A stretch of DNA of 64,000 nucleotides, from positions 1-64,000 of the forward strand of contig JAVVHA010000010.1 of the NCBI GenBank assembly GCA_032249735.1, in the 5' to 3' direction. The notes below the pieces were generated by a model. That model was given only the letters and a program-made list of their open reading frames with translations. It was not told where the DNA came from and did not search any database. This document shows positions 1 through 1,977 of this stretch, piece by piece; within the stretch, counting starts at the first letter, position 1; each line of letters begins with the position of its first letter. A program made the translations under genes and the position numbers. This DNA comes from Dehalococcoidia bacterium. GTDB taxonomy: Bacteria > Chloroflexota > Dehalococcoidia > SM23-28-2 > HRBIN24.

Positions 1-33
1 CCACTGCTCGTCGCTCAGCTCCCTGAACTCCAT
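1..33 (-). CDS. IS5-family transposase, N-terminal 11 codons (runs off left edge)
   Basis: Reading the minus strand from 33, an ATG opens MEFRELSDEQW. The ELSDEQW start is characteristic of IS4/IS5-type transposases (DUF4096 N-terminus). A strong Shine-Dalgarno GGGGGAGG sits a few bases upstream (about 37-46). The rest of the gene lies outside the window, so the family call rests on eleven residues plus context: the adjacent methylase frame is truncated just beyond it, as expected after an IS insertion. Confidence 0.6.
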   Translation of the reverse strand, partial: MEFRELSDEQW

Positions 34-59
34 GCTGCCTCCCCCTCGTTCCAGGGGAG

Positions 60-635
60 AGTCTACCCCTAACCGAGTTTCGAGACCAGTTCAAGAGCAC
101 CACCACGGAGCAGTTTCTACTGGAATGGCTCAACTATCAGGGGAAGCTTATCCGCCAGAGGCCCGAAGCCCTAAGGGTGGTCTACACCAGAAGCGGCACC
201 TACCTAACGGCTGCCGTCGTCGGAGTGAACGGTCTCGACGTGTGCGCTCTGTCAGTGGCGGGCTTCGTGGTGGACAACATGCTGTATAGCTACGAGGCGA
301 GCGACCCCTACGAGGCTCACTATCTGGCAGCCCTGCTCAACGCCCCCTGCATCGATGCCGCCGTCAAGCACTTCCAGACCAAGGGCGCCTTCGGGGAGAG
401 GGACATCCATCGCCGTCCCTTCGAGGTGCTGCCCAACCCTATACCCCTCTTCGACCCCGAGGACGGGAGGCATCTGCAACTCGCCGAGCTCTCAAGGCGG
501 TGCCACCAGCGGGTGGCAGGCATGGAGCTCTCCCAGTCCAGGGCCATCGGCCGCCTGCACCAGGAGGTGCGGGAGGCCCTCCGTGAGGAGCTGCAAGAGA
601 TAGACAGGCTGGCCAGGGAGCTGCTGGGGCTATAG
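60..635 (+). pseudogene. C-terminal fragment of an N6-adenine DNA methylase / type II R-M protein
   Basis: The frame is open from 27 to the stop at 633-635 but has no plausible start before an internal GTG at 177, and protein-like sequence (QFLLEWLNYQGKL) extends upstream of that. The region with AALLNAPCID, GERDIHRRPFE and NPIPLFDP followed by a helical tail resembles the TaqI-like C-terminal target-recognition region of Eco57I-type methylase/restriction proteins. The catalytic NPPY domain is missing. It is probably a remnant cut by the transposable element whose transposase starts at 33. It could instead be the end of a split gene. The exact fragment start is uncertain. Confidence 0.6.
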
Positions 636-696
636 CGAACGCACTCCATATGAGCACGGACAGGGGGTGGCTGCGTGGGGGGCCTGCCCAAAGGCT

Positions 697-726
697 GACT
701 TCGCAAAATCCCTCTATTGCGAAGTC
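697..726. repeat. perfect 10-bp inverted repeat with 10-nt loop
   Basis: GACTTCGCAA (697-706) and TTGCGAAGTC (717-726) are exact reverse complements around AATCCCTCTA. It lies about 60 bp after the methylase fragment in a gene-free stretch, with no T-run after it. It may be a terminator-like hairpin or a recombinase/excisionase site. Confidence 0.7.
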
Positions 727-767
727 CACTGAAATACAACATCCGTTGTCTAGACGGTGAGGGCAAA

Positions 768-834
768 CAGTGGCATCATGGCACCGCCTGGGGGAGGCAG
801 TTCGGGGCCCAACTGTGGCATAACTGCGGCACCG
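768..834. repeat. imperfect direct repeat pair in the integration region
   Basis: 768-786 (CAGTGGCATCATGGCACCG) and 813-834 (CTGTGGCATAAC.. ending GGCACCG) are related copies about 45 bp apart. They lie between the inverted repeat and the tRNA-Arg remnant. Their position would suit arm-type integrase sites, but this is inference. No ORF between 636 and 985 looks real. Confidence 0.35.
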
Positions 835-855
835 TATCTGAGTCCCCTATCTGGC

Positions 856-906
856 GCCTGGCTTCGGACCAGGAGGCTGCGGGTTCGAGTCCTGCCGGGG
901 GCGCCA
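856..906 (+). tRNA. tRNA-Arg(TCG) 3' half: likely att site remnant
   Basis: The segment holds a complete anticodon arm (CCTGG / CTTCGGA / CCAGG, anticodon TCG), a variable region, a TPsiC arm (GCGGG TTCGAGT CCTGC), the 3' acceptor strand CGGGGGC, discriminator G and encoded CCA. The required 5' acceptor strand GCCCCCG and a D-arm are absent upstream, where about 831 begins ACCGTAT. It is therefore not a functional tRNA. A duplicated tRNA 3' half is the typical scar left where an integrative element recombines into a tRNA gene. Confidence 0.75.
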
Positions 907-944
907 GGATTACCGCTGCCGAGCGCCAAGATTACCGCTGCAAA
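901..944. repeat. two tandem copies of a 22-bp unit
   Basis: GCGCCAGGATTACCGCTGCC at 901 and GCGCCAAGATTACCGCTGCA at 923 repeat with a 22-bp period. The first copy begins inside the CCA end of the tRNA-Arg remnant. This may reflect duplication at an integration junction. Confidence 0.55.
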
Positions 945-985
945 TCGCCAATGGCGGGCCTTAATGGGGGCACCAGATAGGACTC

Positions 986-1060
986 TGGAGGCGACGGCGG
1001 GATTCGAACCCGCGATCGGGGATTTGCAGTCCCCTGCCTTAACCCCTTGGCTACGTCGCC
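986..1060 (-). tRNA. tRNA-Cys(GCA)
   Basis: On the minus strand the acceptor GGCGACG (from 1060) pairs with CGTCGCC. The anticodon arm is GGGGA / CTGCAAA / TCCCC, giving anticodon GCA. The TPsiC loop is TTCGAAT. The discriminator is T (U73), the known tRNA-Cys identity base, followed by an encoded CCA. All four arms are present, so it should be functional. A good promoter lies upstream at 1085-1113. Confidence 0.95.
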
Positions 1061-1084
1061 GCCTGGGTCGGGGGCTCCACCACT

Positions 1085-1113
1085 ATTGTGCTAAGGGGCA
1101 GCGGGGCTGTCAA
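1085..1113 (-). promoter_or_regulatory. sigma-70-type promoter of tRNA-Cys
   Basis: On the minus strand, -35 TTGACA (1113-1108), a 17-bp spacer and -10 CACAAT (1090-1085). The predicted start near 1078 is about 18 bases before the tRNA 5' end. Confidence 0.7.
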
Positions 1114-1143
1114 GGCGGGCGTTAAGATAGCGTTAGGATGCCC

Positions 1144-1977
1144 ATGCCCGTGCTATATCTGGTAGCTACCCCCATCGGCAATCTGGAAGATATCACCCTG
1201 CGGGCCCTGCGCGTGCTGCGGGAGGTCTCCCTAGTGGCTGCCGAGGACACCAGGACGGCACGCAAGCTCCTATCCCACTACGGCATCAGGGCGCGTCTGC
1301 TGAGCTACCACGAGCACAACAAGGGAGCCCGCATACCTGTCATCCTGGAAGAGCTGCGGAAGGGCGATGTGGCCTTGGTCTCAGAGGCGGGTATGCCGGG
1401 GATATCAGACCCCGGGGTGGAGCTGGTGGCGGCGGCAGCCAAGGAGGGGTTCCGGGTGGTGCCGGTGCCCGGGCCCTCGGCGGTGGTAGCTGCCCTGGCC
1501 GTCTCCGGCCTCCCCACCAGCCAGTTCACCTTCCTGGGGTTCCTGCCGCGACGGGCGGGAGAGAGGCGCCGTCTCTTGGCCCAGGTGGCTGCCGAGGGGA
1601 GGACCCTGGTCATCATGGAGGCCCCCCACCGACTGCGGCAGTCCCTCCTGGACATGCTCCATACCTTGGGCGACCGCCGTGTAGCTGTCTGCCGGGAATT
1701 GACCAAGGCCTTTGAGGAGGTGTTCCGGGGGACCATCTCCCAGGCCCTGGCCCACTTCCCGGAGCCGCGGGGGGAGTTCACCCTGGTGGTGGAGGGGGCC
1801 CCTCCTCCCGGACGGGAGGTGGACCAGGAGCGGCTGCGAGAGGAACTGGCATACCTGCGGTCGCAAGGGATGCGGGCCAAGGAGGCGGTGGCCCAGGTAG
1901 TGGCTCAGTATGGAGTGCCCCGCCGCCTCGCCTACCGTCTCTGGCTTCAGGCCCTCAAACGGAGGCCCGTCACCTGA
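1144..1977 (+). CDS. rsmI: 16S rRNA 2'-O-ribose C1402 methyltransferase RsmI
   Basis: This SAM-dependent tetrapyrrole-methylase-fold enzyme modifies C1402 of 16S rRNA in the decoding centre. Visible family signatures are LYLVATPIGNLEDITLRA at the start, AEDTRTARKLL, SEAGMPGISDPG and the PVPGPSAVVAAL loop. The length of about 277 aa is typical. Two in-frame ATGs (1138, 1144) are possible. 1144 is preferred because TTAGGA then sits five bases upstream and the protein begins MPVLYLVATP like its relatives. metG follows 28 bp downstream. Confidence 0.95.
   Translation: MPVLYLVATPIGNLEDITLRALRVLREVSLVAAEDTRTARKLLSHYGIRARLLSYHEHNKGARIPVILEELRKGDVALVSEAGMPGISDPGVELVAAAAKEGFRVVPVPGPSAVVAALAVSGLPTSQFTFLGFLPRRAGERRRLLAQVAAEGRTLVIMEAPHRLRQSLLDMLHTLGDRRVAVCRELTKAFEEVFRGTISQALAHFPEPRGEFTLVVEGAPPPGREVDQERLREELAYLRSQGMRAKEAVAQVVAQYGVPRRLAYRLWLQALKRRPVT

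Follow-up and report, generated by a model that had tools for sequence, protein, structure and literature searches.

A truncated tRNA-Arg(TCG) copy in a draft Dehalococcoidia genome as the probable right attachment site of an integrative element

Introduction

The window, i.e., the whole stretch of 64,000 nucleotides that was analysed, starts at base 1 of contig C10, and part of a tRNA-Arg(TCG) gene lies close to this start. How did half of a tRNA gene come to stand there? The initial annotation had read it as the right boundary of an integrative element that used the tRNA gene. The genome (G000) is a draft of 28 contigs, 1.73 Mb, with a contamination estimate of 1.49%.

Results

Truncated tRNA copy

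Positions 856-906 hold four parts of tRNA-Arg(TCG), namely the anticodon arm, the T arm, the 3' strand of the acceptor stem and the CCA. The duplicated stretch is somewhat longer.

854..909, plus strand: predicted attR core, 3' part of tRNA-Arg(TCG) from the anticodon arm to CCA plus three bases; 56 bp identical to C23:3177-3122

The 51-bp segment described earlier was thus correct but slightly short at both ends. In the search of the own genome, these 56 bp were aligned to C23:3122-3177 (minus strand) at 100% identity with an E-value of 7.6e-23. The second-best match of the fragment was 32 bp at 97%, within tRNA-Arg(TCT) on C17.

ARAGORN called no tRNA at the window fragment. The Rfam tRNA model matched positions 828-903 with 30.1 bits, barely above the gathering score of 29. 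A functional tRNA at 828-903 was rejected, because its 5' half is mispaired element DNA and ARAGORN was silent. A structured RNA spanning the junction was also rejected, with a fold z-score of 0.26. An inverted repeat (846-858/969-981, 92% over 13 nt), of which one arm belongs to the element end and its partner to the host flank, is probably due to chance.

Intact tRNA and integrase

An intact tRNA-Arg(TCG) was detected by ARAGORN in the same genome at C23:3125-3200, minus strand. A copy with the same 3' sequence had been expected to the left, beside a tyrosine recombinase, and the lack of any second genomic copy had been named as evidence against integration. The copy is present, on C23 instead of leftward, and it has an integrase gene beside it. 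C23 and C10 are separate contigs of the draft assembly, which also lacks the element's interior.

On the 3' side of the intact tRNA, three 11-bp direct repeats, the tyrosine integrase, a small ORF and a primase/helicase gene follow in this order. The repeats beside the integrase, i.e., ACTGCGGCATA ACTGCGGCACG ACTGCGGCAT, showed 18/20 matches at lag 11, which was reached in 0/2000 shuffles. The integrase is complete, with 355 aa (C23:1988-3055, minus strand), and carries the domains PF00589 (9.4e-20) and PF14659 (7.7e-11). In PHROGs it was assigned to phrog_1 integrase (3.3e-55). Its solved relatives are integrase and Xer structures, the best being 3nkh (7.2e-12), and no dif-like context was found at the gene. 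The HxxR box is the usual motif of tyrosine integrases; here, Arg takes the place of its first histidine, so the enzyme may be inactive.

The integrase is only distantly related to phage proteins. The best identity to a phage record was 32% (Thermus phage integrases), and every match to the 536 phage records and 60 plasmid records was below 60%. In the viral collection, 282 stretches were confirmed, and best-segment identity did not exceed 33% among the 80 kept. When the named genomes were scanned with an alignment of the integrase, a single distant locus came up, in Pseudalkalibacillus hwajinpoensis.

The small ORF after the integrase had no family match. The primase/helicase gene encodes a Prim-Pol/D5_N protein and is cut at C23:1 by a 53-bp repeated sequence; its continuation was absent from 19 stretches of the own genome and the window. 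The 53-bp sequence recurs, whole or partial, at or near seven other contig ends.

C23:1, C18:2, C16:2, C14:1, C8:85726, C6:91221, C11:81107 and C3:122879: 53-bp contig-end sequence

It is presumably the end of one assembly-breaking IS family.

Upstream of tRNA-Arg(TCG), at a distance of 1.5-2.1 kb, there is a tRNA-His in G000 and in six of the seven relatives examined (G001, G002, G003, G004, G007 and G010). The seventh, G012, has none within 1.8 kb of the contig start. The flank beyond the C23 tRNA-Arg is considered chromosomal because tRNA-His is also there in these six relatives.

Right end of the element

Four features precede the tRNA fragment in the window.

1..33, minus strand: start of a transposase-like ORF (IS), broken by the contig start and interrupting the gene at 69-635; 91% to C23:24626-24658
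69..635, plus strand: cargo of the element, encoding the 188-aa C-terminal portion of a type IIG restriction enzyme-methyltransferase; PADLOC PDLC03630, 3.2e-13
634..798, plus strand: right-end block, common to C5 (90%) and in part C26 (74%)
808..832, plus strand: predicted binding sites of the integrase, arm-type repeats ACTGTGGCATA ACTGCGGCAC; 24/25 identical to C23:3089-3065

The first two correspond to the methylase and IS fragments already noticed on the left. The transposase-like ORF, in the window and at C23:24626-24658, is putatively of IS5 type. Searches of the 69-635 product in Pfam and PHROGs gave zero matches. Phage structural or packaging genes were not found among the ORFs searched in C23:1-1987, window 1-853 and C9:1-7341, which are a small part of the elements.

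The block at 634-798 looks like a right-end module of conjectural role. It contains a hairpin (697-706/717-726) and, at 746, the motif TTGTCTAGAC. This TTGYCTAGAC-like motif also precedes the SeC right end of G002. Among the 60 relatives, the block gave just one match, of 21 bp, in G010. The 90% copy in the own genome (C5:470-633, locus L064) lies upstream of an intact tRNA-Met and has no recognisable tRNA fragment; it is perhaps a decayed element end. Its match to the neighbouring tRNA-Met, of 13 bp, is too short to count as such a fragment.

The arms, with the consensus ACTGYGGCAY and an 11-bp period, have the same direction on both sides of the core. About 20 bp ahead of the window tRNA fragment, the arm motif agreed with that of C23 in 20/21 bases (0/200 shuffles). 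Five integrase-side spacers were compared with four right-side spacers from this and the sister elements described below. The cognate pairs reached 20/21 (Arg), 19/21 (Thr) and 19/21 (SeC), and for all three, 0/200 shuffles were as good; the 17 other pairs gave 12-15/21. The arms of the Pro remnant matched the Arg right end in 15/21 (5/200 shuffles), which agrees with the ACTGCGGCAT arm they have in common. In the lag-11 test the arms came out weaker; shuffles as good numbered 16/2000 for the Arg right side, 453 for the Thr right side, 359 for the SeC right side and 912 for the Pro side. Lambda-type integrase systems have arm sites flanking the core. Arm-type repeats distinct from the core appear on both sides in a like manner in three elements.

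Because of the cognate arm match, C10 is tied to the C23 integrase. This bears on the strongest alternative, in which two islands entered one tRNA, in tandem or by replacement, and the fragment and the C23 integrase stem from different elements. C23 and C10 are unjoined, G004 shows that unrelated inserts can occupy tRNA-Arg(TCG), and an incomplete relative of the integrase lies on C15. Still, the C23 and window arms agree in 20/21 bases, against at most 14/21 for the C23 arms and any non-cognate right end tested, so two islands are an improbable source of this junction.

Host side and tandem repeat

The DNA to the right of the fragment belongs to the host.

901..944, plus strand: 22-bp tandem repeat, units 901-922 and 923-944, the first overlapping the core end; host side
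986..1060, minus strand: tRNA-Cys(GCA), with which the host genes on the right begin; ARAGORN
1138..1977, plus strand: host ORF read as rsmI, also beside tRNA-Cys in G001; named from reading the sequence

The housekeeping genes that had been placed on this side agree with tRNA-Cys and with the ORFs read as rsmI and metG, the latter named in the same way. TRF confirmed the tandem repeat (901-951, period 22, 86% matches, score 74), but it does not start exactly at the CCA (904-906), as had been stated. It starts at GCGCCA, three bases ahead, at 901. No counterpart was found elsewhere in the own genome or in the matches of the relatives. Its proposed meaning as a mark of integration has no support. 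It appears to be a host-side duplication, incidental and with no visible role.

Relatives and the integration site

The own genome and 60 relatives, i.e., 61 genomes, were searched with window 856-1977, and 57 gave some match. The Arg fragment ahead of tRNA-Cys was found in 0 of the 60 relatives; its presence in all relatives, which would have spoken against an insertion, is thus not observed. The intact tRNA-Arg(TCG) was present in 7/7 relatives whose neighbourhood was examined. In G001, the sole genome of the same genus among the relatives listed, tRNA-Cys adjoins the rsmI-like gene, an arrangement shared with the window; the Arg fragment is absent and the DNA on the left is different. No integrase of the C23 kind was found there at 1e-20. 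The exact empty site of the window element was in none of the relatives searched, because no listed relative has tRNA-Arg(TCG) beside tRNA-Cys.

Gene order near both tRNAs varies among the relatives. This, together with the 22-bp tandem duplication touching the end of the fragment, could suit a tRNA pseudogene left by duplication or rearrangement with no integration. However, the homology runs from the anticodon arm to just beyond the CCA, the intact copy has an integrase directly beside it, and either side carries cognate arms, which makes such a pseudogene very unlikely. That C23 or the C10 end is foreign to the genome by a binning or assembly artefact can practically be dismissed: the draft state and the contamination estimate allow for it, but C23 bears the tRNA-His flank of the six relatives and the fragment continues into host genes within one contig.

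G004, from another family of the order, has an independent 1.2-kb insert in tRNA-Arg(TCG) (L084:4548-5870). The intact gene is at L084:4548-4624 and a second 3' half starts from about L084:5820. Between them is a 264-aa ORF, methyltransferase-like by reading, and no related integrase. In G012 (L086), homologues of the downstream ORFs (about 98 and 426 aa) stand directly after the intact tRNA, so the site of the G004 insert is empty in G012. With this insert besides the window element, tRNA-Arg(TCG) has been used repeatedly in the order.

Sister elements and tRNA polarity

Further integrases of this clade, with identities of 50-68%, were found beside tRNA-Thr(CGT) on C9, tRNA-Lys(CTT) on G002:C25 and tRNA-SeC(TCA) on G002:C34. 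The SeC att pair is complete, i.e., L213 (G002:C9) 1188-1276 and L104 (G002:C34) 1300-1388, with an 89-bp core of the 3' type. The Thr element also has both junctions, and its layout is the mirror of the Arg layout: the integrase lies beyond the 5' end of the intact tRNA, and the second junction is a 46-bp copy of the tRNA 5' half on C26, ending at the anticodon stem. For Lys, a second copy measures 81 bp by hand count. It starts at a TTGACA box, reaches the anticodon stem and stops exactly at the end of contig C31, where right arms were not seen. In the Thr element, and very likely in the Lys element, the tRNA has the reverse orientation with respect to the element.

On C15 (L109, 1366-1950), an internally deleted integrase with a single ACTGCGGCAT arm lies 3' of tRNA-Pro(TGG). 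Across its first 60 aa, identity is about 88-90%, and the locus is the remnant of a third element.

Among 31 integrase loci, 19 have a tRNA within 400 bp; 14 of these face the integrase by the 3' end and five by the 5' end, three of the five judged by position. Neighbours of the types Lys(TTT), Ser(TGA) and Val(TAC) were likewise seen by position. The tree covers 22 of the 31 loci. It requires five changes of the 5' label, four of them forced by well-supported branches, a number inflated by L219, L221, L222, L223 and L225, which have no near tRNA and were kept in the tree as not 5'. Since 500/500 label shuffles did as well as these five changes, the 5' label does not track the tree. The nine loci outside the tree are L097, L100, L102, L105, L107 and L108 (no tRNA within 400 bp), L109 and L110 (incomplete) and L113 (tRNA 383 bp away). 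Branching among the four closest integrases is without resolution.

Discussion

The stretch 854-909 is, with high confidence, the attR of an integrative element inserted at tRNA-Arg(TCG) through site-specific recombination, with attL on C23. The right boundary proposed in the initial annotation is upheld by the 56-bp identity, the intact tRNA, the integrase and the matching arms. Two of the features used by Islander are present: an intact tDNA and an end fragment (56 bp, 100%) in the same genome bin, and an integrase gene (PF00589 and PF14659, phrog_1) inside the candidate island. The arms, core and flanks are oriented as for a 3' fragment downstream of its tDNA, with the copies on two contigs. 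The SeC element of G002 has a like layout, with both junctions present. We infer that C23:1-3121 and window 1-853 are the two ends of one element, which may be a phage, satellite, plasmid or ICE; arm function and integrase activity are putative. Against this reading stand the separation of C23 and C10, the interior missing from the assembly, the failure to find the exact empty site among the relatives listed, and the Arg in the HxxR box.

In the proposed mechanism, the C23 integrase would recombine two sites: attP, a tRNA 3' half carried by the element, and attB, the tRNA gene of the chromosome. The crossover would most likely lie at the start of the duplicated core, in the anticodon stem-loop. 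The 3' copy of the element would then complete the tRNA on the left (attL, C23), with the host upstream side retained, and the original 3' half would be displaced to the right end of the element (attR, window).

Concerning the sister elements, we lean towards the view that tRNA polarity is not fixed in this clade. The Arg and SeC elements, and Pro by position, duplicate the 3' half; Thr, and very likely Lys, duplicate the 5' half with element DNA upstream of the tRNA. The geometry, i.e., core, arms, integrase, and at the other end right module, arms, core, seems constant, and the arms seem specific to each element. It is reasonable to consider that the palindromic anticodon stem-loop would let a lineage flip its target. 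Polarity switching within one integrase clade was not found in the titles and abstract openings of the open-licence papers listed.

The finding locates one end of a mobile element split over two contigs in the draft assembly, and explains a possible false tRNA annotation at 828-903. The integrase, the tRNA target and one defence-type cargo gene of the element are now named. The Arg, Pro, SeC, Thr and Lys loci form a small natural series on the change of tRNA target and duplicated half in one integrase lineage.

Comparison with known systems

The Islander report lists 3919 islands, 3760 with 3' fragments and 159 with 5' fragments, and 2083 with anticodon-centred sites, and takes islands of 2-200 kb (PMC4383910). 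Like these tDNA-targeted islands and prophages, as described there, the Arg element has an intact tRNA with an adjoining integrase, a 3' fragment at the far end and a core starting on the anticodon side. It differs in that its ends are on two contigs and that sister elements of its clade use the 5' half.

The phage integrases of phrog_1, with Phage_int_SAM_3 and Phage_integrase domains, have the same domain order and length as the C23 integrase. However, the C23 integrase is only distant from them, and the short stretches of the element that were available showed no structural gene of a phage.

According to an archaeal review, related integrases switch tRNA targets, and use of the 5' half is typical of pTN3-like integrases and rare in bacteria (PMC8371274). 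The Thr and Lys elements resemble pTN3-like archaeal integrases (PMC8371274, PMC5495485) in that the duplicated part is the 5' half as far as the anticodon stem. In contrast to them, the core lies outside the integrase gene here, the gene stays whole, and the clade also uses the 3' half. The Arg element and both tRNA polarities are therefore of kinds already known.
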